Virus record (IMG/VR): IMGVR_UViG_3300018080_000458
Coordinates: 1 to 29,833 of that record
Direction: 5' to 3' (one strand)
DNA: 29,833 bases
Origin: a virus
Positions 10,649 through 24,201 of this stretch are shown here, piece by piece. Position numbers and translations under genes: made by a program. Under the pieces are notes generated by a model. The model saw nothing but the letters and a program-made list of their open reading frames with translations, did no database searches and was not told the DNA's origin. Position 1 is the stretch's first letter. The number at the start of each line of letters is the position of its first letter.

Positions 10649-11380
10649 TCAGGCTTTTGCCCGAGCCTCAGCAATCGCTTGCTGAACCTTCTTTTCCCAG
10701 TCCTTCGTCCAGCCGGGCTGGATGGGCTTGAGCTGGCGGACGATCTTCTCCTGGCCGCGGCGTTCGTAGCCGCCACGGCCCATGGCCGAGAGGTGCCGGG
10801 GGTTGCGGATCGTGCCCCAGCGATGGACGAACGACGGCCGGCCGGTCGGGGAGGCCTGCGGAATGCCGATCCGTTTCATGCGCGTGGCCAGGCCCTGGTC
10901 CTGGCCCGATTGCATGGCCGGGTAGCCGCCGGCCGCCAGAAAGGCCCGCCGCGTGAAGACCCAGGCCGCGTGAAAGAGGCCCCGGGTCTGCTTCCGCCGG
11001 AGCCGCTTGGGATGGTCGTTCCAGACCACGGCGGGCCGCGACCACTCGACCCGGCCCGCTTCCAGCAGCTCGGCCGCCCGCTCCAGGTGCCACGGCAGGT
11101 AAATGTCGTCATCGTCCCAGACGGCCAGGGCGTCGACGTCCGGCGAAACAAGGGCGGCCGTCGCGTTTCGCTTCTCGCCCAACGTGCAAAACCGCTGGCC
11201 GATGCTCACGAGCCGCCAGCCCGGGCCGGTCTGCTCGCAATACTGGCCAGCGTCGTCCAGGATGATCAGCTCCCGCTTTGCCAAGGGGTACGTCTGCCGC
11301 TGGAAGCACTCGATCGATTCGGCCAGCAGCTCGGGACGGTTGTAGGTGGAACAGATGCAGGCGATCTTGATGTCCGGCAT
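10649..11380 (-). CDS. Glycosyltransferase, family 2 (GT-A fold)
   Basis: 243 residues. The N-terminus IACICSTYNRPELLAESIEC is the nucleotide-binding start of GT2 enzymes, LIILDDAG follows at residues 38-45, and the metal-binding acidic cluster is VWDDDDIYLPWH (D89-D92). FHAAWVFTRRAFLAAGGYP and the later GQDQGL resemble the acceptor-side region of such enzymes. It would transfer a sugar from a nucleotide donor; donor and acceptor are not predictable. The C-terminal 40 residues are basic and helical. It is the last gene of the late operon, three bases after a second glycosyltransferase. Confidence 0.85.
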   Translation of the reverse strand: MPDIKIACICSTYNRPELLAESIECFQRQTYPLAKRELIILDDAGQYCEQTGPGWRLVSIGQRFCTLGEKRNATAALVSPDVDALAVWDDDDIYLPWHLERAAELLEAGRVEWSRPAVVWNDHPKRLRRKQTRGLFHAAWVFTRRAFLAAGGYPAMQSGQDQGLATRMKRIGIPQASPTGRPSFVHRWGTIRNPRHLSAMGRGGYERRGQEKIVRQLKPIQPGWTKDWEKKVQQAIAEARAKA

Positions 11381-11383
11381 GGA

Positions 11384-12130
11384 TCAGGTCGAGCTGGATG
11401 GGGGCGGTGTTTGGACAAGTTGCCAGCCGTGGGCACGGTAGTAGTTGTGAATCTGAATTTTCTTGACGTGCTCCGAGGTCTGGTTCCAAAGGGCGTGGCG
11501 ATCGTTGCCGTACTTGCGGCCCTTGAGCGAGCCCCAGAAATCCTGATCGCCGGGCGGGTGCGGGCAGGCAAAACTCTTCACGCCGAGGTGCTTTTGCAGA
11601 GAAAAGCTGAGGTGGTAGTCCTCGCCGGCCGTGGACGGACAGCCGGGCATGCGGGGCTCCAAGACGAAGTAGCCCAGCCAGCGCCGGGGCAGGAACCAGG
11701 CGTGGCCGATCACGTCGACTTCGTCGATGCGATCGTTGGGCCGGGGCCAGCCGAATTTGGGCCGCAGGCTGCGATCGCCGGCCGGGAATCGGACGCCGGC
11801 AGCACCCACGAGGCCGCCCGTCTCGGCATGCGTCCGCAAACAGTTCTCGAACCATCTTGGGCCGGGGATCGTGTCGTCATCGAAGATGCATACGAAGTCC
11901 GTGGCCAATGAGGCCGCGTAGTAGAATCGCTGCCAGACGCCCTGGCGGATTTGGGAGCCGGTGACGATCACCGAGGCGTCGCAGACCGGCGGCGATTTCG
12001 GGCCGTCGTGCCAGACGTGAATGCACGCGGACCGGATCGTCTGCCGGCGGATCGCCTCGATCTGCTGGCCGATGTAGCTCATGCGGGCGTGCGTGCCGAT
12101 CACGACGCCGATCGTGGGCGTATCACTCAT
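11384..12130 (-). CDS. Glycosyltransferase, GT2-like, second copy
   Basis: 248 residues from ATG 12130, overlapping the sulfotransferase stop by 8 bp. GT-A features: PTIGVVIGTHARMSYIGQQI at the N-terminus, FVCIFDDDTIPGPRWFENCL with D84-D86 as the DXD-type metal site, and GAAGVRFPAG. The later segment MPGCPSTAGEDYHLSFSLQK has the acidic pair often acting as catalytic base. It is not a recent duplicate of the GT at 10649, since the two share only the fold-level pattern. It is probably cytoplasmic and modifies a virion protein or host surface glycan. The C-terminus is Pro/Ser-rich (PPPSSST). Confidence 0.8.
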   Translation of the reverse strand: MSDTPTIGVVIGTHARMSYIGQQIEAIRRQTIRSACIHVWHDGPKSPPVCDASVIVTGSQIRQGVWQRFYYAASLATDFVCIFDDDTIPGPRWFENCLRTHAETGGLVGAAGVRFPAGDRSLRPKFGWPRPNDRIDEVDVIGHAWFLPRRWLGYFVLEPRMPGCPSTAGEDYHLSFSLQKHLGVKSFACPHPPGDQDFWGSLKGRKYGNDRHALWNQTSEHVKKIQIHNYYRAHGWQLVQTPPPSSST

Positions 12131-12701
12131 CAGGCAGTCTCTCGGGGTCGTATCCGTACGCGGCAAAGTCAATCGCTGCGAAATCGCGGACGAGTCGCAT
12201 GCAATAGGCGTCGTAATAGTCCGCGAGCCGATACGGCCGGTTGTGGTTGATCTGCTTGATCGGGCCCTTGAACTTCGCATCGGCCATGAACGGCAAGGCG
12301 TCAAATTCGTCCTGCAACGACTCGAAACGCAAGACGCGGTGCAGCCGGCAGCCGGAGAGCATCGTGGCCTGCGGCGGCTCTTGGGTGGACAGCGGCGGGG
12401 CTTCCATGTTCGTGTCCCACTCAAGATACTCACGAAACGTCCAGCGGCGGCAGAGCCGGTACATATTGCTCCGCGGCCGGCTGCGACGGAAGAGATAGTG
12501 GGACAGGTGCCGCGCGAACGGATTGCGAACCACGGCAAAGGCGAAGTGCAGCTCCGTGTCCGGCAGCGGGTGCATCGCATGATGCCGGCCGACGGCGCGG
12601 GCCTTGCCAGGAAAACACTTCAAAAGATGGGCCGAGATGGCCCGCGAAGCCGTCCGGGGAACGGCGTAGAAAACGAACGGGGGATCATTACAGAGAATCA
12701 T
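12123..12701 (-). CDS. Sulfotransferase-family protein
   Basis: 192 residues from ATG 12701 (ATGA overlap with the GT4 stop). The two PAPS-binding elements of sulfotransferases are visible: a 5'-phosphosulfate loop FVFYAVPRTASRAISAHLLK (P15 to A21) and the 3'-phosphate motif FAVVRNPFARHLSHYLFRR (R59, S67). The rest is helical and the size is short for the family, typical of Sulfotransfer_2-like proteins in phage and polysaccharide clusters. It would move sulfate from PAPS to a hydroxyl on a glycan or protein. Flanking glycosyltransferases suggest that a sugar is the acceptor. Phage sulfotransferases are uncommon. Confidence 0.75.
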   Translation of the reverse strand: MILCNDPPFVFYAVPRTASRAISAHLLKCFPGKARAVGRHHAMHPLPDTELHFAFAVVRNPFARHLSHYLFRRSRPRSNMYRLCRRWTFREYLEWDTNMEAPPLSTQEPPQATMLSGCRLHRVLRFESLQDEFDALPFMADAKFKGPIKQINHNRPYRLADYYDAYCMRLVRDFAAIDFAAYGYDPERLPDE

Positions 12702-13834
12702 AGGGTCGCGTCTCCACTGCTAGTGCATACGGGCTCAAGAAGCATGTCGTCAAGAAGCCGATAGCCGGCCACGGTCTCGAAGAGGCGGTTCCAGTCGTCC
12801 GTGATGGGGCCCGGGTCCGCAAGCTGCTCGACGCGCGCCCGGGCCGCTTCGGCGATCTGCATGCGGAGCGTTTCGTCATAGGCCAGCAGGGCGGCATAGA
12901 ACTTCAGTTCCCCGTCATTTCCGCCGCTCGCGTCGGAGCCCAGGTAGCCGGTGATGCCGTGCTCGATCATCTCCCGCCAGCCCCATTCGTTCTGGGCCAC
13001 GATCGGCACGCCGGCAGCCATCGCCTCCAGGCCCACGCGCGGCCAGTTCTCTTTGGCTCCGCCGTTGATCGGCAGCAGGCAATGGCAGCGGCCAAGGAAT
13101 TCGGTCGAGCTGATCTCTTGCGGCTTGAGCGCCGTCGCCCAGCGGGGCGGCCGGCCGAGCTTGCGCTGGAGCTTGTCGTTCCAGCCCATCACCAGGGCCC
13201 GCCGTTGCTTATACGGCACCCCGCCGTAGATCGCCCACGTGTTGGAACTCCACTTGTCGGCGTCCGGGCGGGAGAGCCGGCCGATGACGAACTCTTCGCC
13301 CGCAGCATGGGCCCGGGGCTGGAACGGAAACTCGCTCAAGTCAAAGGCCCCGCGGATCACGTGAGCGTGCACGAGCGGATCGTAGCCCTGAGACAGGCGG
13401 TTCAACTGCAATTCGACCTGGCCCTGCTGGAAGCGGGACTGGTAGACATAGGCGTCCATCAATCCGTGCTTGCGTGCCGTGGCCAATTCGGCGGGGAAGC
13501 AGAAGGTCATGCAGTTGACCCACACGAGCCGGCACTCCAGGCGGCGCAGCTCCTGGACCGAGCTGACGTAATGGGCGTTGCAGAAGCCGATCACGATCGA
13601 GCCGGCCAGGCCCGGGACGTCGGCCAGTTTGCGGGGGCCGTCGACCTCGATCGTCTTGGCCCCGATCGCATCGAGCCGCCGGCGATACGTCTCGTTCGGT
13701 TTCCATGTCGGCACGAGCGTGACGTCCCAGCCGGCTTCCCGCCAGAGCTTGACCGTGTGCCAGCACTCGGTATTGGCCCCGCCCATGTTGCCGGGATAGC
13801 CGAGCACGAAAACGTGAAAGGGATGCAGACTCAT
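12698..13834 (-). CDS. Glycosyltransferase, GT4-like (GT-B fold)
   Basis: 378 residues from ATG 13834, which overlaps the previous stop (ATGA); the longer open frame upstream is a shadow. The N-domain begins HPFHVFVLGYPGNMGGANTE, with the Gly-rich acceptor loop of GT-B enzymes, and continues WREAGWDVTLVPTWK. The C-domain has the GT4 donor-site pattern ENWPRVGLEAMAAGVPIVAQ followed by EWGWREMIEHGITGYL, including the E-x7-E-type acidic pair. There is no signal peptide. It is the first of four consecutive coupled genes (GT4, sulfotransferase, GT2, GT2) that look like a glycan-building cassette inside the late operon. Confidence 0.85.
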   Translation of the reverse strand: MSLHPFHVFVLGYPGNMGGANTECWHTVKLWREAGWDVTLVPTWKPNETYRRRLDAIGAKTIEVDGPRKLADVPGLAGSIVIGFCNAHYVSSVQELRRLECRLVWVNCMTFCFPAELATARKHGLMDAYVYQSRFQQGQVELQLNRLSQGYDPLVHAHVIRGAFDLSEFPFQPRAHAAGEEFVIGRLSRPDADKWSSNTWAIYGGVPYKQRRALVMGWNDKLQRKLGRPPRWATALKPQEISSTEFLGRCHCLLPINGGAKENWPRVGLEAMAAGVPIVAQNEWGWREMIEHGITGYLGSDASGGNDGELKFYAALLAYDETLRMQIAEAARARVEQLADPGPITDDWNRLFETVAGYRLLDDMLLEPVCTSSGDATL

Positions 13835-14340
13835 TTCTTCTTCCGCGGAGGTTTGACTTCGGCGAGAAACTTGTTCTTGGGGCAGCGCTCGGTGGCCATT
13901 TTGATCTTGTTGATCAAGGCGATGTTGCCGGAGCTGGTCCGGCAGCCGCAGACACGACACCGCTTCTTCTTGGCGTTGAAATCGGGGCACGGTCCGCAGA
14001 TCGTCTCGAAAATCTCCTGGACCCGCTCCGCACTCCGTACGGGCCGGCCAAAGCGAATCCAACGGCGGACTGCCTTCGAGTAGCGCTTGGCACAATCCTT
14101 GAACGACGGGAGATCATCGGACGTGGGAGACGGTTGCGGCTCCGTCGGCGGATCGCCGCTGCCGGAACGACACGGCACGGGCACGCCGGCCAGCCATTGC
14201 CGCTGCTGCTCGGGAGTGAAAAGGGCGTTGCAGATCGCCAGCAGGCCGCAGGTCCGGCAGCGGAAGTGGATCCCGTCCGGCCCGTGGGACGTCTCTTCCC
14301 ACGTATGCCCTGCCGTGTTGTAGCGATCGTTATCAGACAC
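13831..14340 (-). CDS. Cys-motif (probably zinc-binding) protein
   Basis: 169 residues from GTG 14340, chosen for the GGGAG site 8 bases upstream and the 8-bp overlap with the preceding gene. The N-terminal part holds HFRCRTCGLLAICNALF (C-x2-C-x5-C), and the C-terminal part has ETICGPCPDFNAKKKRCRVC followed by GC and, 20 residues on, ERCP. The paired C-x2-C knuckles suggest two zinc sites or one shared site. The tail ends in a basic PPRKKK. The C-terminal Cys pattern recurs in phage proteins next to glycosyltransferases, but I cannot name its function. It is translated just ahead of the GT4 gene. Confidence 0.68.
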   Translation of the reverse strand: MSDNDRYNTAGHTWEETSHGPDGIHFRCRTCGLLAICNALFTPEQQRQWLAGVPVPCRSGSGDPPTEPQPSPTSDDLPSFKDCAKRYSKAVRRWIRFGRPVRSAERVQEIFETICGPCPDFNAKKKRCRVCGCRTSSGNIALINKIKMATERCPKNKFLAEVKPPRKKK

Positions 14341-16102
14341 CGGAGGAACTCCCGGACCACTCGGGACACGCGCCGGGATCCTCGCAAAGGAACTCAACGC
14401 AGCAGATCAGCGGGTGATGGGTGCAGATCGATTCGGGGGCTGTCGCGCTACCGTAGCCGTAGACGTTGCCGTTGACGTCGGCGGTCACCGTGCCGCCGGC
14501 ACAGATCGCTTTGGACTCATCACAGGCACAGCCGGCCGGCATGGGGCCGTCGTCCTGGTCCAGCTCCAACGAAGCCGTGCCCACACTGAAAGAGAGGGTC
14601 GAGCTGACCGCGTCGGCTTCCTCGTCCCGCTTGCCCCAGATCCGCACGTAGTAGGTACGGCCCGGCTCGAGGCCGCCAAAGCGCTTGGTGCAGGAGAACG
14701 AGCCGCCGCCGGTCCCGGACGAGGAAGAATCTCCGTCTCCCTCCACGTCGCCCAGACGCAGGACGCCGGCCGAGCAGCCCGCACAGGAACCGTCCCCGTC
14801 GTCACAGAAGCCGTCCTGCTGGATGAACTCGCCCGGATCGTCCGAGTCGAAGGTGACGTCCTGGCAGGCGCTGGACGATCCGCTGGAGCCGCTGCTGGAT
14901 CCGCAGATGTCGATGCAGGAGACGACGGCCTGCTGGCCATCATAATCGCCGGCCGCAAACGGGGCACTGCCGCACTGGCAGCAGCGGTCGTGAAGATCCG
15001 TACACTCGTCAGTTACGATGGACCAGAAATTGCCGCCGCTGTCCCACTCCCAGACGCAGTAACCTGGATCGCAGGAGTAGTCACCGGACGAGCTGCTGGA
15101 CGATTCGCCGCTCGACGACGGCACACCGCTCGAAGAGGACGAATCGGAACAGCAAATGTAGACGCAAACCGGGGCCGCCGGCGTCTTGGTGCAGAGCAGG
15201 CCGTTGCGGAAATCGAGCACGACCCGCGACGCGCACACGTTGTCTCCGACCCGCGTGAGGCCGGTGAGCACGGTGACCGTGGTCGTCAGGTCGCAGTCGC
15301 CGGACGAGGAACCGGACGAGGATCCGCTGCCGGACGACTGGCCGCTGCTGCTGGGCTGGCCGCTGGAGGATTCGCCGCTGGACGAATATTGGCAGTTGCC
15401 CAATGCCAGGACTTCGAACCACTGCTCATCGGCAAAATACTTGGCGTAGCCGAGCGTGCCGGCCGGAACGCCCGAGGTGGTGGCAAAGGCTGCCGAGTTG
15501 ACCACACCCACCGGATCGTAGACCGTGAAGCAGACGTTCGACTCTTCGCAGGTCGGGTTGCAATCGTTGCCGTTGAACCAGAGCTTGGCCTCGGCCTCGC
15601 CGCAGGCCGCCAGGGGCTCGGTGAGCACGAACCGCCAGATGTCCTCGAAAGCTCCAAGCACTTCCCAGCGGCCGCTCTGGGCGTTGAAGGTACACCAGAC
15701 CCAATCCCCGTCGTCGAAGCGGGGCATAATGGCCATCTTGGGATCGAGCCGCATCGTGTCCCGCAGCGGCGGCGGGTAGCCGCCCGGATGCCAGATCCGC
15801 ACCTCGTCCTGAAAATCGTTCTTGCTCCATTCCTTGTCGCCCGATCCGTAGCGGACCCGCCTGGCCAGGGCCGCGTGCCAGTAGTACGGCTCGGTGAATT
15901 CAAGCCGCCAGGACGAGGTCAACTCAAAGAGATCGAGGCAGGCGGGCGGGCGCTGGCTCTGCCGTGGATTGACCGTGCTCGTATCGGCCTCGGCCGTGTC
16001 CAATAGCTGCGCGTTCCGCTCGGCGTCCAACGCGCGGACCAGGTCTCGCTGATCGGAAGCCCGTATCGGGGAGCCGCGTTCTGGCCGCGGGAGTCTGGGC
16101 AT
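14333..16102 (-). CDS. Large Cys/Ser-rich late protein, probably a virion tail-tip or fibre component
   Basis: 589 residues. Residues 1-240 form a globular region (LTSSWRLEFTEPYYWHAALA, then Trp-rich strands such as WVWCTFNAQSGRWEVLGAF). The remaining chain alternates small Cys-bearing modules with Ser/Gly linkers, notably around residues 240-275 and 320-345, and ends EWSGSSSGV. A hand count gives about 34 Cys, so many disulfides or metal sites are likely, unusual for a cytoplasmically made phage protein. The segment GGLEPGRTYYVRIWGKRDEE resembles a fibronectin-III strand pair. Following the tape-measure and tail-tip genes, it is best read as an exposed tail component. No enzyme motif was found. 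Confidence 0.65.
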   Translation of the reverse strand: MPRLPRPERGSPIRASDQRDLVRALDAERNAQLLDTAEADTSTVNPRQSQRPPACLDLFELTSSWRLEFTEPYYWHAALARRVRYGSGDKEWSKNDFQDEVRIWHPGGYPPPLRDTMRLDPKMAIMPRFDDGDWVWCTFNAQSGRWEVLGAFEDIWRFVLTEPLAACGEAEAKLWFNGNDCNPTCEESNVCFTVYDPVGVVNSAAFATTSGVPAGTLGYAKYFADEQWFEVLALGNCQYSSSGESSSGQPSSSGQSSGSGSSSGSSSGDCDLTTTVTVLTGLTRVGDNVCASRVVLDFRNGLLCTKTPAAPVCVYICCSDSSSSSGVPSSSGESSSSSSGDYSCDPGYCVWEWDSGGNFWSIVTDECTDLHDRCCQCGSAPFAAGDYDGQQAVVSCIDICGSSSGSSGSSSACQDVTFDSDDPGEFIQQDGFCDDGDGSCAGCSAGVLRLGDVEGDGDSSSSGTGGGSFSCTKRFGGLEPGRTYYVRIWGKRDEEADAVSSTLSFSVGTASLELDQDDGPMPAGCACDESKAICAGGTVTADVNGNVYGYGSATAPESICTHHPLICCVEFLCEDPGACPEWSGSSSGV

Positions 16103-16105
16103 GGA

Positions 16106-16993
16106 TCAGGCTCCCGGAGAACTGCTGCTGTCGCCGCCGCACGTGGCTTCGGTAAACATGGACGAGAAGTCGGCCTGGTCGTAACGGTCTACACAGTTTC
16201 CGCCCGTGTCTTTCATGCGGATCCGCACCCAGCCATCCTGGCGCATTTCGTGGTTCCAGCCGCGGATCTCCGTGTCATCCTGGATTCGCCGCTTGCGAAA
16301 TACGCAGCTCAGCTTCCAGCAATACGGATCGAGTAGGCTGAACTGGCTCGACTGGTCGACTTCGTATCCTTCGAAGAGGATCGTCTCGGCTTCGGAGTCG
16401 AGAAAGGTATCCGAGTTGACACAGCCGATCAGCTCGTCCCATTCGTCCAGCGGCGGCTCATCCACATAGTCCCACTCCACGTGGTACTCGGTAATCGGGA
16501 TTACGATTCGCGCATTGACGTCCGGACCCGGCATGGGGCCGTCGGGATAGGCCTCGCAATTGTCTTCCCATCGCACGGAATCGCCAGGCATGGTCAAGAA
16601 CTGCCCGGACGTGCGGACGCGCAACTTGAGCGAGGTGCCCTCGGGATGCGAGGGCTTGGTGATCGTGCAGGGCCAGGCCGCGTTGCCGTAATCGGTGGCG
16701 TAGCTCGCACGGACCAGGGCCACCATGCCGCCGTTCTGCTCGTAGCTGACAAGCTGGGAATTGGGATTCGTGAGGATCTCGTACTTCGGGCAGAGATCGG
16801 GCGAGAAGGGCTCGATCGTGATGTTGCGGCAGTAGCAGTAGGGGAGCCCGGGCCACTGGTAGCCGGCGAGACTCTGGGCGAACGCGTACCGCTCGTTCCA
16901 CAGACAGAGAAAGAACCGCTCGCCGCCGTTGCCGCTGGCGGCGTCGTGCTGGCTGCGTGCACTGCCGGCGAGTTCTTCGTACTGGTAGGACAT
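16106..16993 (-). CDS. Probable tail-tip (distal tail-type) protein with Ser-rich end
   Basis: 295 residues starting 14 bp after the tape-measure stop, the usual place of the distal tail protein. The body is beta-rich (ERFFLCLWNERYAFAQSLAG, ARIVIPITEYHVEWDYVDEP, WKLSCVFRKRRIQDDTEIRG) without transmembrane or catalytic features. The chain ends in CGGDSSSSPGA, a short Ser-rich tail like those on other late proteins here. The assignment as a tail component rests on position and composition, not on a recognised family. Confidence 0.6.
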   Translation of the reverse strand: MSYQYEELAGSARSQHDAASGNGGERFFLCLWNERYAFAQSLAGYQWPGLPYCYCRNITIEPFSPDLCPKYEILTNPNSQLVSYEQNGGMVALVRASYATDYGNAAWPCTITKPSHPEGTSLKLRVRTSGQFLTMPGDSVRWEDNCEAYPDGPMPGPDVNARIVIPITEYHVEWDYVDEPPLDEWDELIGCVNSDTFLDSEAETILFEGYEVDQSSQFSLLDPYCWKLSCVFRKRRIQDDTEIRGWNHEMRQDGWVRIRMKDTGGNCVDRYDQADFSSMFTEATCGGDSSSSPGA

Positions 16994-17006
16994 GACGCCT
17001 TTCCGC

Positions 17007-19148
17007 TTATCCCCAGGCCGGCATGGGATTGGGGGCCATTTGCTGGTTTTTGGCGTCGCTCATCTTGACCTTGAGCGCTCCGCCCTCCACGGCCGTGGCG
17101 AGCTTCTCGGTGGCCCCGGCCGTCTTCTCGGCCAAGGCGTTGGCCTTGGCCTGCTCGTTGGCCCGGGCCGCCTCCTGCTGCATCTTCTCGGCGAGCTGGG
17201 CCAGGCCGACGAACTCGTACTTCCCGCCCTTGCCCGGCGAGTCGCCGCCGGCCGGGCCGGGAGCGCCTTTTTCGCCCGTGCCCGACTCGCCGCCGGCCGC
17301 GGCCGCGGCGGCCTGCTTGTCGGCCTTGGCTCGCCGATCGGCCATGCGCTTGCCGAGCTGGCCGTACAGTTCCTCGATGCGGTCGTTCGTCTTTTGGACG
17401 TTGGCCTCGGTGAGCTGCGGCATCTCCTGGATGCTGCTCTTGAAACCGTCCAACAGCGGCGTGGCATTGAACTCCCACTGTTCGCCGCGGATCCAATTCA
17501 ACAGGGATTGCCAGAGTCCCTTGATGTTCTCGATGAGGTTCGTAAAGAGCGTGGCCGTGAAGTCGCCCAACGTGACGAAGATCTCCTTCCAGTTGCCAAA
17601 GAACCAGGTGGCGATCTCCCCGACGTTGACGAAGAACGTCTTAAAGCGTTCCCAGGAGTTGGCCAAAAAGAGCTTCGTGTGCTCCATGCCGAGCCGCCAA
17701 TAAATGTCCCAGTCGCGGATCAGGTCGCCGAGGTCCGCAAGCACCGACTTGAAGAAGTCGGGGAACAGGGCGGCCAGGCCGCCGATGGCCACGGCCACCA
17801 GGCCGATGGGGCTCAGGAGCATGCCGAGCGCCGCCCCCAGGGCCCCCACGATCGCGACCAGGCCCTTGGCGGCCACGACGGCCCCCACGATGACGCCGCC
17901 GATCCTGGCGACCTGCGAGATCAGCTCGCGATTGCGGACGATCCAGCGCCCCACGGCACCGGCCACGGCCAGAAGCGGATCGGCCAGCGTGAGCACCACG
18001 CCGGCGGCCGAGGCCAGGAAGTCCAGGACGGCCAGACCGATCGTCTTGAGCCCGCCCAGGACGTCGCCCAGGTTCTCGGCGTTGCCGGTGATGATCCCGA
18101 TGGCCTGGCCGATGACGCCGGAGATCCGGCCCCAGGCCTCTTCGGCGAAGTCGCGGACGTCGCCCAGGATCTCCCTGATCCGCTGGCCGTAGAGCTTGGC
18201 GAATTGGCCGGCGAACTCGCCGACTCGCTTGAGCACCGGCTTGAGGACGAAGGTCTCGACGATCATCATGCCGATATCGGCCAGCGAGTTCTTGACGTTG
18301 CCGGTGATCGTGCTCCACAGTCCGCCGAGCGTCTGGGAGAGCTTGGCCATGCCGCCGGCGAACTGGCCCGAGCCGGTCGTCAGGTTGCCGAGGGCCCGTT
18401 CGAAATCGGCGAAGGAGATCTTGCCCTCGGAGGCCATCTTGCGGATCGCGGCCTCGGGGACACCGAACATCTTGGCCAGCTCGCGGCCGATGGGGATGCC
18501 GCGTTCGAGGAACTGGTCGAGCGTCTCGGTCATCATGCGGCCCGTGCCGCGGACTTTGCCGTAGATCGCCGCCAGGTCGCCGATGGCCGCCCCGCTCAAG
18601 GCCGAAATGTCGCCCAGGCGGGTCATCGTGGGGATGATGTTTTCCTGGGCCGTTCCAAACGCCAAGAGCTGCTTGGCCACGCCGGCCAGCTCCTGCTGCT
18701 CGAAGGGCGTGGAGGCCGCGAAGGCGTTCACTTCCTCCATCATTCGCTTGGCCTTGTCGGCCGAGCCGAGCAGGACTTCAAAGCTCGTGCTGAGCGTTTC
18801 GACTTCGGCAGCCAGTTTGAGCGTGGGACCTAGCACGAAGCCGGCGAACAGCCCGCCGGCCATGGCCATCTGCAAGAGTCGCACGGGACGCAGGAGGCCC
18901 GTGAGGGCTTCGCGGACGCGACGGATGCGATCGGTGCCCATGGATTGCAGCCGGCTGACGACGCGAGACACGCCCGAGGCGACCGAGCGGACCGGGCTGA
19001 TGAGGCCCGTGAAGCCGCGGTTCAGCACGTTCACGGGACTGAGGGTCGCCTTGAGCCGGGCGGCCAGGCCGTCCGTCTTCTTCAGGACGACCGCCATGCC
19101 CCGCTGGCCGATTTGCACATAGGCTTCTGCAAGTCGAAACGCCATCAC
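17007..19148 (-). CDS. Tail tape-measure protein
   Basis: 713 residues, the longest gene in the window. The N-terminal 350 residues carry the recognisable tape-measure domain: LAAEVETLSTSFEVLLGSAD, FAASTPFEQQELAGVAKQLL, DISALSGAAIGDLAAIYGKV, ERGIPIGRELAKMFGVPEAA and GGLWSTITGNVKNSLADIG. Several hydrophobic stretches (about residues 95-115, 390-470) could insert in the membrane at DNA injection. The C-terminal 120 residues are Ala/Lys/Glu-rich and probably coiled coil. It sets tail length; the size would suit a tail of roughly 100 nm by the usual 0.15 nm per residue rule. It directly follows the tail chaperone pair, as in most siphoviruses. ATG 19148 or 19145 could be the start. Confidence 0.93.
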   Translation of the reverse strand: MMAFRLAEAYVQIGQRGMAVVLKKTDGLAARLKATLSPVNVLNRGFTGLISPVRSVASGVSRVVSRLQSMGTDRIRRVREALTGLLRPVRLLQMAMAGGLFAGFVLGPTLKLAAEVETLSTSFEVLLGSADKAKRMMEEVNAFAASTPFEQQELAGVAKQLLAFGTAQENIIPTMTRLGDISALSGAAIGDLAAIYGKVRGTGRMMTETLDQFLERGIPIGRELAKMFGVPEAAIRKMASEGKISFADFERALGNLTTGSGQFAGGMAKLSQTLGGLWSTITGNVKNSLADIGMMIVETFVLKPVLKRVGEFAGQFAKLYGQRIREILGDVRDFAEEAWGRISGVIGQAIGIITGNAENLGDVLGGLKTIGLAVLDFLASAAGVVLTLADPLLAVAGAVGRWIVRNRELISQVARIGGVIVGAVVAAKGLVAIVGALGAALGMLLSPIGLVAVAIGGLAALFPDFFKSVLADLGDLIRDWDIYWRLGMEHTKLFLANSWERFKTFFVNVGEIATWFFGNWKEIFVTLGDFTATLFTNLIENIKGLWQSLLNWIRGEQWEFNATPLLDGFKSSIQEMPQLTEANVQKTNDRIEELYGQLGKRMADRRAKADKQAAAAAAGGESGTGEKGAPGPAGGDSPGKGGKYEFVGLAQLAEKMQQEAARANEQAKANALAEKTAGATEKLATAVEGGALKVKMSDAKNQQMAPNPMPAWG

Positions 19149-19864
19149 TCACCTGCCGTGGATCTCTTTCAAGAGGATCCGGTTTTGTTCCGTGGATCGC
19201 ATCCGCAGGTAATCCTTCATCACGAGCTTCTCGATCTGGTGGTCGGGTGTCACGGCTCCCATGAGGACGCACAGCGGGATCAGCCGCAGGTTGTTCACTT
19301 CGTCGGGGGTGAAGCCGTACTCCCGCGCGAAGAAGACGTACAACTCGGGCCAGCCGGTGATCCGACTTTGGGGCTTTCGTCTGCCGGGTTCGCCGCCCGA
19401 GCCTTCGGGCTCGGGCCAGATGAGTTTCCCGCGTCGGCCTCGCCGCTGGCCAGGTGGACCTTGGCCACGACTTCCTCCAGCCGCTCTTCGCCGATCTCTT
19501 CGAGCAACCGCAGAGCGTCCTCCGGCGTGGCGAATTCGGCGGCGTGGTCCTCTTGCAAGCAGGCCCAGAGCTTGAAGGCCACGCCGCGGAGCGAGTTCTC
19601 GAAGGCGGTCATCTCGGCCGCTTCGACCACGCGCGACTTGACGGCCACCTTCATGGCGGCCTGCCAGATCGTATCGTGCTGCTCCTTGGGCGCGTGCTGG
19701 CAGGCCCGGGCGGCCAGGACCAATGGATCCTCGCGCTGCGAGACGATGTAGGCCTCCAACTGGGCGCAGAGCCCGACCACGGGCGGTGCTCGCAGCGTGT
19801 ACTGTTTGTCGCCCACGGTCACCTGCTGGGTGAGCTGGGCCGCGGTCCTGGCGTGTCCGGCCAT
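19149..19864 (-). CDS. Tail assembly chaperone GT-type fusion, made by -1 frameshift
   Basis: Ribosomes start at ATG 19864, read 147 codons of the G frame to the GGGAAAC heptamer (19430-19424), slip -1 and read 91 more codons to TAA/TGA at 19149, giving about 238 residues. The extension is clearly coding: WPELYVFFAREYGFTPDEVN, then LIPLCVLMGAV and a C-terminal helix KLVMKDYLRMRSTEQNRILL. It abuts the tape-measure start at 19148. As with lambda gpGT, the G part coats the tape measure and the T part recruits tail-tube subunits. The annotated span covers both frames; the join is at 19424. Confidence 0.85.
19295..19864 (-). CDS. Tail assembly chaperone, G-type (unshifted product)
   Basis: 189 residues from ATG 19864 with GAGGAAAG just upstream; an in-frame ATG at 19912 lacks a ribosome site. 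The first 145 residues are mainly helical (LTQQVTVGDKQYTLRAPPVV, CLQEDHAAEFATPEDALRLL, EEVVAKVHLASGE). After the slip site the unshifted frame runs on as a low-complexity tail (SSGPSPKARAANPADESPKV). It lies between the tail-tube and tape-measure genes, the conserved location of this chaperone. Confidence 0.85.
   Translation of the reverse strand: MAGHARTAAQLTQQVTVGDKQYTLRAPPVVGLCAQLEAYIVSQREDPLVLAARACQHAPKEQHDTIWQAAMKVAVKSRVVEAAEMTAFENSLRGVAFKLWACLQEDHAAEFATPEDALRLLEEIGEERLEEVVAKVHLASGEADAGNSSGPSPKARAANPADESPKVGSPAGPSCTSSSRGSTASPPTK
19395..19430 (-). promoter_or_regulatory. Programmed -1 ribosomal frameshift signal
   Basis: Minus-strand slippery heptamer G-GGA-AAC (19430-19424), a 7-base spacer TCATCTG, then a perfect 9-bp hairpin GCCCGAGCC-CGAA-GGCTCGGGC (19416-19395). 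Heptamer type, spacer length and stem all match canonical -1 signals, and both frames are coding on their own sides. Confidence 0.9.
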
Positions 19865-19935
19865 TCTTTCCTCGGAGGGATCTTTGGAGTGGAAAACGCA
19901 GGGAAACGTCAATCAATCAAGGGCAGCCGGCGTGC

Positions 19936-20346
19936 TTACGAGCTTTCGCCGGCCGTGGCAAGGATGCCGTGGTAGGTCGGCGGTCCGGTCGGCTCGAAGC
20001 CGTACTCGACCTCCACGATCTTGCCGTCGTTGATGTCACAGGCGATCGGGTGCGTGCCGATGATCACGGGCACTTCGATGTAATTCTCGTCCGTGGCGTC
20101 GACGTGCAAGTTGAGCGTGCCCGTGTCGCCGATGCGGTAGGGCATATTGCCCTCGCTGTCGAGCTTCGTGGTCACCGAGCCCGAAAAATCCTCCACCGTG
20201 GCCACGCCCTTCTTATGGCCGCTGGTGCTGTTGGAGGCGTATTTCTCGATGTTCGCGTTCGGGTCGAAGCTCCAACCGGTGACTTCGGCGATCGCTCCGC
20301 CGGCGTTTTTGGCCGAGCCGTTCTTGCCGCTGAATGCCTCGCTCAT
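19936..20346 (-). CDS. Major tail tube protein
   Basis: 136 residues, located directly before the tail chaperone pair. The sequence AEVTGWSFDPNANIEKYASN, then VATVEDFSGSVTTKLDSEGN, IGDTGTLNLHVDATDENYIE and PVIIGTHPIACDINDGKIVE form the beta-strand pattern of siphovirus tail-tube proteins. It has no Ig-like extra domain. It ends ATAGESS. It forms stacked rings around the tape measure; assignment rests on gene order and strand pattern. Confidence 0.78.
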   Translation of the reverse strand: MSEAFSGKNGSAKNAGGAIAEVTGWSFDPNANIEKYASNSTSGHKKGVATVEDFSGSVTTKLDSEGNMPYRIGDTGTLNLHVDATDENYIEVPVIIGTHPIACDINDGKIVEVEYGFEPTGPPTYHGILATAGESS

Positions 20347-20381
20347 GGAATGGCTTCCTTGTCGTCAGGTGAATAGGTGGA

Positions 20382-20855
20382 TCATCCCGAGCTGGAAGAA
20401 GAACCAGAAGAACCGCTGGAGGAACCCGAAGACGAGCTGCTCGCCGCCTCCGCGGTCCTGGCCCGGGTTACGGTTACTTGGAACTGGGAGACGAACTGCC
20501 ACGTGGTGTCCTGCGGATCGTCCGACTGGAGCGCGTAGCTATCCGTGTGCCGGACGTCCAGGGCCCGATCGTCGTCGATCGGGAAGTCGCGGTTGGCCAG
20601 GGCCTCTTCCAGGGCCCGCTGGATCGGCTTGCCGGCGGTGAGGCCGGCGGCCCAGATGCTGATGCGAACCTGCTCGCTGCGGATGAGGCTGTCCGTGGTC
20701 CGCTCCGAGGCCGTGCCGGCGGGCCAGTCGATGCGGGCACACGGCAGGGCCGCGTTGCGGGGAATGCGGCCGGTGAAGACCCGCTCCACAGGCAGAAGCC
20801 CGTTGAGCGTGGCATCCGCTGCCCACAATTCGTGGATCTTTCCTTCCAGGCTCAC
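20382..20855 (-). CDS. Tail terminator or completion protein with Ser/Gly tail
   Basis: 157 residues from GTG 20855 with GAGGG upstream. The body resembles DUF3168/gpU-type tail terminators: GKIHELWAADATLNGLLPVE, an alpha-beta core containing RSEQVRISIWAAGLTAGKPI, and strands WQFVSQFQVTVTRA. These proteins cap the tail tube before head joining. The last about 20 residues are almost only Ser and Gly in runs of three to five Ser separated by Gly, starting right after the final strand, so the tail is probably an exposed flexible appendage. It lies 6 bp after the gp10-like gene. Confidence 0.72.
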   Translation of the reverse strand: MSLEGKIHELWAADATLNGLLPVERVFTGRIPRNAALPCARIDWPAGTASERTTDSLIRSEQVRISIWAAGLTAGKPIQRALEEALANRDFPIDDDRALDVRHTDSYALQSDDPQDTTWQFVSQFQVTVTRARTAEAASSSSSGSSSGSSGSSSSSG

Positions 20856-20861
20856 CGGCCG

Positions 20862-21320
20862 CTACCCTCGCTTCTTGGCCCCGGTCGCTGCAAGCCGACC
20901 GATCTGTTCGCGGAACTTCATGAGCGTGTCCAGCAGCCACGGCCGCGGCTGGATAAGTCGCGTGCCCAGCTCCAGGAAGATCATGTAGATGCCTTTGGCG
21001 GAGACTCCCACGCGGACTTCCGGGGCCTTTTCGTTGTCGTTGAACTCCATCACGATTTCGTCGCGGCCCTGGCCCGTCCGCAGGCGAGGCGGCTCGCCCG
21101 GCCGGCTCGGGTTGTCGTACACGGTACGGCCCTTGAGAAACCGGCCCTGGTTGTCACGACCGCCCTTGATCCTCGTGCCCGTGTTGGGCGTCGACACGGC
21201 TTCGCGGCATTTGGCGTGGTAGAAGACGCCGGCACGCTGGATGCCCTCGGCCGTCGCCTGGCGGAGCAGGCGGGCGAACTGGCGATCGTGGACTTTGACG
21301 ACGACACCACCACGGACCAT
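20862..21320 (-). CDS. HK97 gp10-like head-tail or minor tail protein
   Basis: 152 residues. The gp10-family pattern is visible: an N-terminal helix (FARLLRQATAEGIQRAGVFY), a central loop with GRTVYDNPSRPGEPPRLRTG, then VGVSAKGIYMIFLELGTRLI followed by QPRPWLL, the conserved E-x-GT-x(4)-RP motif. These proteins sit at the head-tail interface or early tail. It overlaps neither neighbour (5-6 bp gaps), consistent with the connector, gp10, terminator, tube order seen here. Confidence 0.82.
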   Translation of the reverse strand: MVRGGVVVKVHDRQFARLLRQATAEGIQRAGVFYHAKCREAVSTPNTGTRIKGGRDNQGRFLKGRTVYDNPSRPGEPPRLRTGQGRDEIVMEFNDNEKAPEVRVGVSAKGIYMIFLELGTRLIQPRPWLLDTLMKFREQIGRLAATGAKKRG

Positions 21321-21325
21321 GGTTT

Positions 21326-21979
21326 CTAAACCCTCCGTACGAGCAGCTTGGGCAGCGCATCGAGACGCTCCGGACGGACGTACTGGTCGAGCCGGTAGAC
21401 GTCGCCGGCGGCGTCCGTCACGCGGTAGTCAGCCCCCACGGGATCGATCGACAGACCGGACAGGTCGTCGGCCAGGAGGATCTCGCAAGAAGCCTCGGTG
21501 GCGTCCTGGCCGTGCTCGATGGCCGTCTGCTGGCTGATCGGTTGCACGCGGGCCTGGACGTCTTCGACGATCGTCTCCCACGTGGGCACGGCCTCGCCGT
21601 GGGAATCCTTGGCATACGTGGCCTGCTCGATCACGACCAGGTTGTCCAGCCCGGCTTTGACGGCCAGGTTGACGGTCACGGCCGAGTACTTGCTGCCCAA
21701 CACCTGCTCGGCAAGCTCAAGGATCGTGTGCCGATTGCCGGCATCGTCGACGATCACCGAGCCCAGCGGCGGCCGCTCGGGCGTCTCGCTCAGGGGCCAC
21801 TGCCAGACTGTGCTGCCGCGGCGGACCTCTCCCGCGGCCTGGTCCGGATCGTCCATGGCGAGCTGGTTGCGATGGGCCGACGTGACCGCGACGTCGGCGC
21901 GGCCGGCGACCACCAACGTGACCTCCTCGAGGCCGTCGACGATGGAAGCGAAATCATCGCTGATCGAGAGCGGGGCCAT
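21326..21979 (-). CDS. Probable head-closure or connector protein
   Basis: 217 residues. The middle and C-terminal part (NLVVIEQATYAKDSHGEAVP, TWETIVEDVQARVQPISQQT, DYRVTDAAGDVYRLDQYVRP) resembles the short beta-barrel head-closure proteins that plug the portal after packaging. The N-terminal 100 residues (ISDDFASIVDGLEEVTLVVA) look like a second domain not usual in that family. The assignment comes from position between the capsid and gp10-like genes and strand pattern; I would not name a family. Confidence 0.55.
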   Translation of the reverse strand: MAPLSISDDFASIVDGLEEVTLVVAGRADVAVTSAHRNQLAMDDPDQAAGEVRRGSTVWQWPLSETPERPPLGSVIVDDAGNRHTILELAEQVLGSKYSAVTVNLAVKAGLDNLVVIEQATYAKDSHGEAVPTWETIVEDVQARVQPISQQTAIEHGQDATEASCEILLADDLSGLSIDPVGADYRVTDAAGDVYRLDQYVRPERLDALPKLLVRRV

Positions 21980-21985
21980 GGCGGC

Positions 21986-22213
21986 TTAGGTGTATCCCTG
22001 GGAAATGATCTCGACGGGCATGCCGTCCGGCTCGCCCTCGGCAATCAGGCGGTTCAGGCGGCTGATGGTCTCGGTGAGCATGTTGCAGTAGGCCGACCAC
22101 TGTACGGTCTGGCCGTTGACCGAATAGCTCGGCTTGGGATTGGCGAGCACCTCCTTGAGCCTGGCCGCGGCGTTCTCACGGGCTTCCACCAGGTTGTCCG
22201 TGTAATCGCTCAT
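21986..22213 (-). CDS. Small head-tail region protein
   Basis: 75 residues between the capsid and connector genes. It is a helical hairpin-like protein: NLVEARENAAARLKEVLANP, then the strand pair PSYSVNGQTVQWSAYCNMLT, and a second helix ETISRLNRLIAEGEPDG. Proteins of this size and pattern commonly follow the capsid gene in phages of environmental bacteria and are likely accessory structural factors; the function is unknown. Confidence 0.7.
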   Translation of the reverse strand: MSDYTDNLVEARENAAARLKEVLANPKPSYSVNGQTVQWSAYCNMLTETISRLNRLIAEGEPDGMPVEIISQGYT

Positions 22214-22230
22214 GTGGCTGTTCTCGCAAT

Positions 22231-22286
22231 CAAAAGGTGCCCGGCCTCCCGGCCGTTGGTGGCCAAATTACGACCGGGAGGACCGG
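22231..22286 (-). terminator. Possible terminator or attenuator after the capsid gene
   Basis: CCGGCCTCCCGG (22241-22252) pairs with CCGGGAGGACCGG (22274-22286) except for one bulged base. On the minus strand it is followed within 4 bases by TTTTG (22235-22231). It occupies the 154-bp gap downstream of the major capsid gene, where partial termination would keep capsid mRNA in excess. No other feature is seen in the gap. Confidence 0.45.
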
Positions 22287-22367
22287 GGAAACTACCGGAC
22301 TGCCAGGCCAGATGGGACGATCAGGACCGCAGCCGGCAGGTTGTCTCTTTCAATCAATCACGTGCAA

Positions 22368-23609
22368 TCACGTGCCGCTGGAGCTGGTGGCCGAGGCACA
22401 GTGACGCTGCCACGTCCTCGGCTCCAGGACCGCGGCGGCTCCGCGCTCACTCGCCTTGTAGCGGAGCACGATGTCCTGGGTGAACTCGGCCTCGCTGTTG
22501 GCCGCCGCCTGAACCACGGTGATCGGCCAATTTTCCATGTAGGCGAAAGCCCGGGTCGGATCGCCGTAGAACCAGTAGCCGGCGGCCGCGGCGGCGTCCA
22601 GGCCCAGGCCGTCGGCGGCCGTCAGCCGCGCGTAAAGCAGCCGGCTCGACCTCAACGTGAGCCCCATGCCGGCCAGCGGGTTGCCGGCCACCACGATGTT
22701 GTCCGTGCCGGATCGCGTCTCCGTGGCCGACAGCAACCGGCGGCCGGTCATGGCCAGGTGGGGCGGCGTGAACAGCGTACGGCCACCAATGAGGATCGGC
22801 TCGTTCGTGTTCGGGTCGGTCATCTCGGCGAACAACTGCTCGGCCGCGTCGATGCTGGTCCAGTCGACCAGCGCGTTGTTGTCGAGGTGGTTGACCCAGG
22901 GCTCGTCCGTGTCCGCGGCGGCGTAGAACGTGTCGAGCGCGGTGCCGTTACGGCGGTAGTTCTCCGTCGCGCCGATCATCACGTCCAACAGCCGCTTCTC
23001 CTTGTTCAGGCCGAGGATCTCGCCCACTTCGGCCGCGCGTCGCGTGACCAGGCCGGTGCGGTCGAAGAAGATCGCCTCCTTCGTGACCGGGATGATCAGG
23101 CCCCGCTTGGTGGTCGAGGGAGTCTCGACGTACTCCTCGCCGAAGCCGAAGGTCGGGTAGTCCTGACCTTCGCGGACGGTCATGCGATCGTTGCCCGGAT
23201 CGCTCGTGTGGGCCACGCCGGGGATCTTCTCGCCGTCGAGCCGGGTGGGCTGGGCGGGGATCAGGCTGCTGGCCACGAACTCTTCGCGGCGATAGCCCTC
23301 CAGGACCTTGCTCACGAGCAACTGGCCCGTGATGTTGGCAAAGGCGGTCGAGTCGACCGCACTCATCGATTCCTGCACCGACACGGTGCCGGTGGGATCG
23401 AAGACCTCCTTGACGAAGCGGTAGCCGCACGACTCGCCGCCGTCGCGATCGAAGATCAGCTCTTCGGCCAGGTCGCGGAGCGAGAACTCTTCGACGGAGA
23501 TGCCGCCCGTCTCGCCGACACGGCCCAGGGCGAGCGATTCGCGCAAGTCGCGATACGTCGCCGCCGGGTCGAGCCGCCAGTCGCGGGCGATGTTTTTGGC
23601 TCGAATCAT
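22368..23609 (-). CDS. Major capsid protein with short Ser/Gly end
   Basis: 413 residues from ATG 23609 (AAGGAGT upstream); an ATG 16 codons earlier has no ribosome site. It follows the protease/scaffold and decoration genes, the standard place. The sequence fits an HK97-like fold: an N-arm (DLRESLALGRVGETGGISVE), an E-loop-like stretch, a long spine-helix region (GLVTRRAAEVGEILGLNKEK) and a P-domain strand set ending near ENWPITVVQAAANSEAEFTQ. The middle segment NEPILIGGRTLFTPPHLAMT is typical of large Mu gpT-like and related capsids. It ends CASATSSSGT, a Ser/Gly tip as in other late proteins. Confidence 0.85.
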   Translation of the reverse strand: MIRAKNIARDWRLDPAATYRDLRESLALGRVGETGGISVEEFSLRDLAEELIFDRDGGESCGYRFVKEVFDPTGTVSVQESMSAVDSTAFANITGQLLVSKVLEGYRREEFVASSLIPAQPTRLDGEKIPGVAHTSDPGNDRMTVREGQDYPTFGFGEEYVETPSTTKRGLIIPVTKEAIFFDRTGLVTRRAAEVGEILGLNKEKRLLDVMIGATENYRRNGTALDTFYAAADTDEPWVNHLDNNALVDWTSIDAAEQLFAEMTDPNTNEPILIGGRTLFTPPHLAMTGRRLLSATETRSGTDNIVVAGNPLAGMGLTLRSSRLLYARLTAADGLGLDAAAAAGYWFYGDPTRAFAYMENWPITVVQAAANSEAEFTQDIVLRYKASERGAAAVLEPRTWQRHCASATSSSGT

Positions 23610-23697
23610 CGTAAAAGACTCCTTGGATTCTTTGGAAAGGCAAAGGCAGGGAAGCACGGCAGCGCCGCGATCGGCACGGTGCCGAACGATGCCGGCA

Positions 23698-24201
23698 CTA
23701 CCCCGAGCTGCTGGAACTGCCAGCGACCTGGGCCGCCACGCCGCCCTCCATGATCGTGGACTTGATCCGCACCAGGACGGTGGTCACGGCGACCGCTTCG
23801 GGCTGGGCCACGCGCCCGACCGCCAGGCTCTCCGAGGCCACGCCGACCACGGTCTGGTCGAGCAGGGCAGTGCCGCCGGCGGCCTCGTCACAGCCCACGA
23901 GAGCGCCCAGGTTGAAGGTGGCACTGGCACAGTCGAACTCGAACTCGCCCGTGGTGGCCACGCGGATCGGGTCCGTGTCGCCGTCGCGGCTCTGTTGCTC
24001 GGCCACGCCCAGGAAGTACTGCTGGAACGTGTCCTGGTTGAGGGCTTCGCTGCCCTGGTCGGGCAGATCGGACGCCGGCTTGGGAGCGTGCGTGGTCCAG
24101 TCGAGAAAGACGAGGTCGCCGATCTCGATGACCGTGTCCGACGCCGGTGCGATGAACACGGGATTCGTGTCGCCCCGGCGGTATCGCATCTGATTGGACA
24201 T
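23698..24201 (-). CDS. Head decoration-type protein with Ser/Gly tail
   Basis: 167 residues. It begins MRYRRGDTNPVFIAPASDTV and continues IEIGDLVFLDW, the barrel-like beginning of DUF2190/decoration proteins that stabilise capsids. Then FLGVAEQQSRDGDTDPIRVA, a Cys-containing strand region and PEAVAVTTVLVRIKSTIMEG. The C-terminus ends VAGSSSSSG. It is placed between the protease/scaffold and the major capsid genes, as in lambda gpD-type arrangements. An outer-surface position would expose the Ser tail. Confidence 0.72.
   Translation of the reverse strand: MSNQMRYRRGDTNPVFIAPASDTVIEIGDLVFLDWTTHAPKPASDLPDQGSEALNQDTFQQYFLGVAEQQSRDGDTDPIRVATTGEFEFDCASATFNLGALVGCDEAAGGTALLDQTVVGVASESLAVGRVAQPEAVAVTTVLVRIKSTIMEGGVAAQVAGSSSSSG

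Follow-up and report, generated by a model that had tools for sequence, protein, structure and literature searches.

Several unrelated virion proteins of one phage end in short serine-rich tips. These tags are real, are maintained by selection and occur preferentially in virion genes. The best-supported reading of the sequence data, and one that we consider somewhat probable, is that the Ser/Gly tips make up a C-terminal O-glycosylation tag system of the virion that operates via a co-encoded enzyme cassette. The window analyzed, IMGVR_UViG_3300018080_000458 (29,833 nt), is a phage contig with its late genes on the minus strand. An earlier note on this DNA had listed five late proteins with Ser-rich tips, and all five C termini read as it claimed, with internal runs also present in the 589-residue protein (Table 1). 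The list can be extended, as the putative tail tube protein also ends in Ser. The identities given to the cement (decoration) protein, the tail terminator and the major capsid protein (MCP) are borne out by Pfam matches for the first two (PF09956 Phage_cement_2, E = 3e-5, and PF11367, E = 2e-10, respectively) and by an HK97 fold for the third (AlphaFold2 and Foldseek), the last five residues of the MCP model being disordered with pLDDT below 50. The proposed tail-tip role did not gain such backing: the protein showed no significant fold match and matched no known family, and its role is taken from gene order, as is that of the 589-residue Cys/Ser-rich protein, which matched no Pfam or PHROG family.

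Table 1. Tagged proteins and glycosylation cassette of the window
Feature	Position	Strand	Remark
Cement (decoration) protein, tag GSSSSSG	23701..23721	-	protein 23698-24201
MCP, tag ATSSSGT	22371..22391	-	protein 22368-23657
Tail terminator, Ser/Gly tail of 19 residues	20385..20441	-	protein 20382-20855
Putative tail tube protein, ends AGESS	19936..20346	-	weak PF18906
Putative tail-tip protein, tag GDSSSSPGA	16109..16135	-	protein 16106-16993
Cys/Ser-rich 589-aa protein, tag SGSSSGV	14336..14356	-	protein 14333-16102
Cys-rich 589-aa protein, 12 poly-Ser runs	14333..16102	-	positional equivalent of the giant Ser-rich protein preceding GT1
GT1, GT4-type glycosyltransferase, conserved cassette head	12698..13834	-	PF00534
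Sulfotransferase-like protein	12123..12701	-	PF03567, E = 1.4e-4, just above cut-off
GT2-like glycosyltransferase, ends PPPSSST	11384..12130	-	below Pfam cut-off
GT2 glycosyltransferase	10649..11380	-	PF00535, E = 1.4e-8

The GT2-like glycosyltransferase supplies a sixth SSS end in the window, the meaning of which is doubtful. An apparent tag on the tail assembly chaperone, SSSRGSTASPPTK at 19295, was probably read past a frameshift site and was left uncounted; in this region (19149-19912) a second frame overlaps the first (19295-19912 and 19149-19343), an arrangement like that of programmed frameshifting. Separately, the contig end (3-317) carries a tandem repeat that encodes SIEAGWSIKAGGSIEAGEW-like units.

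Within-protein shuffles rule out chance arising from a Ser-rich composition. SSS is found within the last 12 residues of 6 of the 34 window proteins (the five plus the GT2-like enzyme), whereas 2000 shuffles of each window protein yielded 0.09 such proteins on average and at most 2. Position was assessed in 2281 proteins, a set drawn from the loci fetched by then that includes the window and its own near-copies, with gene calls from our own script, which may miss Ser-rich genes. Of these proteins, 83 have SSS in their last 15 residues and 3 in their first 15, and the run occurs in 113 of the 33,438 internal 15-residue windows (0.34%). Likewise, the tagged loci contain 120 SSS triplets in the last 10 residues versus 6 in the preceding ten. 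The tags do not originate from a DNA repeat, slippage or a microsatellite, as AGY and TCN Ser codons are mixed approximately as under independent choice: among 58 pairs of adjacent Ser codons, 14 are identical (15.5 expected) and 23 switch between AGY and TCN (27.1 expected). Given that the Ser codons are mixed at random, the run is therefore kept by selection at the protein level and not by a DNA repeat. Nor is the tag a habit of the host as a whole: host contigs from four genomes in which the capsid family and GT1 are present gave only 1 tagged protein in 202, itself a chance-like case.

Relatives of the capsid occur among IMG/VR contigs and within Planctomycetota genomes, with names that are mostly Pirellulales or Thermoguttaceae, and comprise both phages and prophages. 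None was found in the phage-record collection, and a query of viral contigs with the tail tube protein matched only the window's own record. The earlier note had suggested a common tag, and the relatives favor that idea, in that the tags follow lineages, move between unrelated virion proteins and tend to occur together. The MCP is tagged in L002-L014, and the cement protein in L004, L005, L007, L008 and L012-L014. Tail tube homologues bear an SSS tag in L006, L044, L013, L014 and L173, and proteins of the type encoded at 21326 are tagged in L013 and L163. The Thermoguttaceae loci L136 and L145 bear tags on the cement protein, the MCP and a further small protein of the tail region, and the L163 homologue of the putative tail-tip protein ends in CCSSSSSSGS. 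Often the tag is an extension past the end of untagged homologues; for example, L005, L006 and L044 have a tail terminator whose last residues, SRARVH, immediately precede the position at which the Ser/Gly tail of the window protein begins. Co-occurrence, uncorrected for descent, is seen for cement and MCP tags (12 loci with both, 8 and 8 with one, 114 with neither; p = 1e-7), for MCP and tail terminator tags (p = 0.003) and for MCP and tube tags (p = 0.01). Several Planctomycetota genome loci (L145:12755-15586, L136, L125, L093, L147 and others) have clustered capsid, connector, tube-like and tip genes with no room for a tape-measure gene, and are possibly reduced or domesticated elements. 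Opposite-strand genes follow the tip gene in L093 and L158.

The presence of three glycosyltransferases and a sulfotransferase in the same operon, also claimed earlier, agrees with Pfam, although one of the glycosyltransferases scores only below the cut-off. At the head of the cassette lies GT1, in which the E-x7-E motif (ENWPRxGLE) is kept in 19 of 19 aligned sequences. Its profile matches in the PDB are group 1 or GT4-type enzymes, most of them active toward small molecules or lipid carriers rather than proteins, which speaks against the glycosylation reading. A tblastn search of 50,697 phage records returned no match to GT1. The genes behind GT1 vary among loci and include GT2, GT64, GT92, GT7C-like, FkbM methyltransferase, SPASM and sulfotransferase members. 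A constant first enzyme with variable later ones suggests a glycan whose initiation is fixed and whose extension varies. One tag outside the virion genes was seen at L163:17106-17660, where a Galactosyl_T-like protein (PF01762, weak) ends in VGSSSG.

We then compared tags with GT1 across 56 capsid-family loci for which enough sequence or whole-genome information was available. Tag and GT1 are both present in 10 loci, GT1 alone in 7, the tag alone in 1 and neither in 38 (Fisher p = 5e-6), so that tags occur in 10/17 loci with GT1 versus 1/39 without; the survey of relatives for tags without a glycosyltransferase thus leaves the earlier proposal of a link unrefuted. The association withstands a worst-case recount (p = 3e-5) that adds L125, whose GT1 starts at the edge of the contig, and counts against it L093 and L136, the status of which is ambiguous. 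On the capsid tree, GT1 and the tag each change 8 times, and phylogenetically independent pairs agree in direction and are rarely opposite, although just 4 of them lie on well-supported branches, a number that is too small to reach significance. In GT1 contigs outside the original sample, the 319 genes that lie upstream of the enzyme include 15 tagged ones and the 275 other genes none, compared with 1 of 424 genes in control contigs. The proposed link stands less well in other respects: of the 32 further GT1 contigs in which late genes lie upstream, only 9 are tagged (two of the tagged ones, L205 and L206, being near-copies), and GT1 has a more constant neighbor than the tags, a long poly-Ser protein.

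The main rival explanation, which we judge somewhat unlikely, is that the tags are unmodified flexible tips that serve solubility, act as an entropic bristle, protect against C-terminal proteolysis or space the assembly, and that their link to the cassette reflects the shared ancestry of one phage group. The Ser/Gly composition is indeed that of inert linkers, and the disorder of the MCP tip in the model is in keeping with such a role. Moreover, L158 and L093 have tags with no neighboring GT1, and GT1 without tags is common, the strict SSS tag being absent from 7 of the 17 capsid-family GT1 loci and from 23 of the 32 new GT1 contigs. However, an inert linker has no need of poly-Ser over Gly, Ala or Thr, and the strong association of tag with GT1 recurs in L166-L170, whose connector and tail genes are of another set, and in the distant lineages L145 and L173.

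The poly-Ser protein that lies beside GT1 is 500-870 residues long and Cys-rich; it contains 12-46 poly-Ser runs, and Ser makes up as much as 42% of it. GT1 directly follows its gene in about 30 contigs, and in many the start of GT1 lies within about 30 nt of it, whereas in the window the small gene 13831-14340 separates the 589-residue protein from GT1. At least 2 runs are encoded in a nearby frame in 34 of 50 GT1 contigs, and at least 12 in about 25. Giant proteins of this kind, with 25-42% Ser and rich in Cys, are encoded directly upstream of the GT4 gene at L198:7447-9984, L170:7770-9998, L166:8089-9987 and about 20 other places, and possibly represent phage serine-rich-repeat glycoproteins. 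Composition-based gene calling misses these giant genes or places them on the wrong strand. The poly-Ser protein is likely to be a main substrate of GT1. A rival reading, that the cassette serves mainly to glycosylate this Ser/Cys-rich tail protein as a phage serine-rich-repeat glycoprotein and that the short tips are accidental or weak by-products, would account for the proximity of the two genes in many contigs, most of them tipless. We consider it improbable, as the tips are sharply C-terminal and found on several proteins at once, and as GT1 in the capsid family tracks the tips better than it tracks the poly-Ser protein, for which the association is weak or non-significant (p 0.02-0.28, depending on the cut-off).

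None of the window's cassette proteins has a hydrophobic membrane-like segment, in contrast to lysogenic-conversion Gtr systems, which do have such segments. This feature, the late-operon position with overlapping genes, and a scan of the early genes within the 30 kb available that gave no base-modification enzyme all argue against the idea that the glycosyltransferases have no connection with the tags and act on host surface glycans (superinfection exclusion) or on phage DNA. Phage glycosyltransferases are known in both roles (PMC12619734), but the idea leaves the tag link unexplained and is very improbable.

Virion glycosylation has precedent in the mycobacteriophages. According to PMC12619734 and PMC11256854, which cite Freeman 2023, the capsid and tail-tube subunits of these phages bear C-terminal glycans. 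The translated ends of Che8 are NKTGS for the capsid and YSDGS for the major tail protein, and those of Firecracker, taken as representative of the Corndog cluster, are PLVGS and KGDS, respectively; just one of the other structural proteins examined in the two phages ends in Ser. Phages of the Corndog group also encode an O-methyltransferase and glycosyltransferases within the structural operon (PMC4351075). The parallels with Che8 and the Corndog group are that unrelated capsid and tail proteins have Ser at or near the C terminus and that the phage encodes several glycosyltransferases and a methyltransferase, the genes for which lie in the structural operon in the Corndog group. Unlike in the mycobacteriophages, the tag described here consists of 3-6 consecutive Ser, as a rule with Gly after them, and as many as five proteins carry it, among them the cement protein and the tail terminator. 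Further differences are that the head enzyme is a GT4 without a match in the phage records searched, that the hosts are Planctomycetota, that a sulfotransferase is present, and that modification is a prediction in the present system.

A second comparison is with the serine-rich-repeat adhesins of Gram-positive bacteria, which have adjacent GtfA and GtfB. There, as here, a long poly-Ser protein adjoins a GT4-type enzyme and variable extending glycosyltransferases. In contrast to the adhesins, the genes here are virion genes, Cys-rich modules lie between the Ser linkers, and short tags are present on other proteins.

Returning to the O-glycosylation reading, the Ser/Gly tips would be flexible C-terminal acceptor tags. 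GT1, predicted to be a soluble phage GT4 enzyme of the same late operon, would add the first sugar both to poly-Ser stretches in the Ser/Cys-rich tail protein and to capsid, cement and tail proteins at their tagged C termini. Extension and decoration of the glycan with further sugars, methyl groups and sulfate would then fall to the variable enzymes encoded downstream, and the resulting surface glycans may help adsorption or shield the particle. We infer the action of GT1 on protein Ser, the modification of the tags and the benefit to the phage. A bolder and more tentative proposal is that poly-Ser is a general, transferable acceptor tag recognized by one phage glycosyltransferase. Gain of SSSG at the C terminus could then bring any virion protein into the glycan coat, with the identity of the glycan, including sulfated glycans, set by a swappable downstream cassette.

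In the literature covered, virion glycosylation has been documented in a few mycobacterial phages. If the reading favored here is true, virion glycosylation would extend to phages of Planctomycetota, with a recognizable sequence tag and a candidate initiating enzyme. It would then be predictable from sequence, and the enzyme and its tag would offer a genetically simple pair to study.
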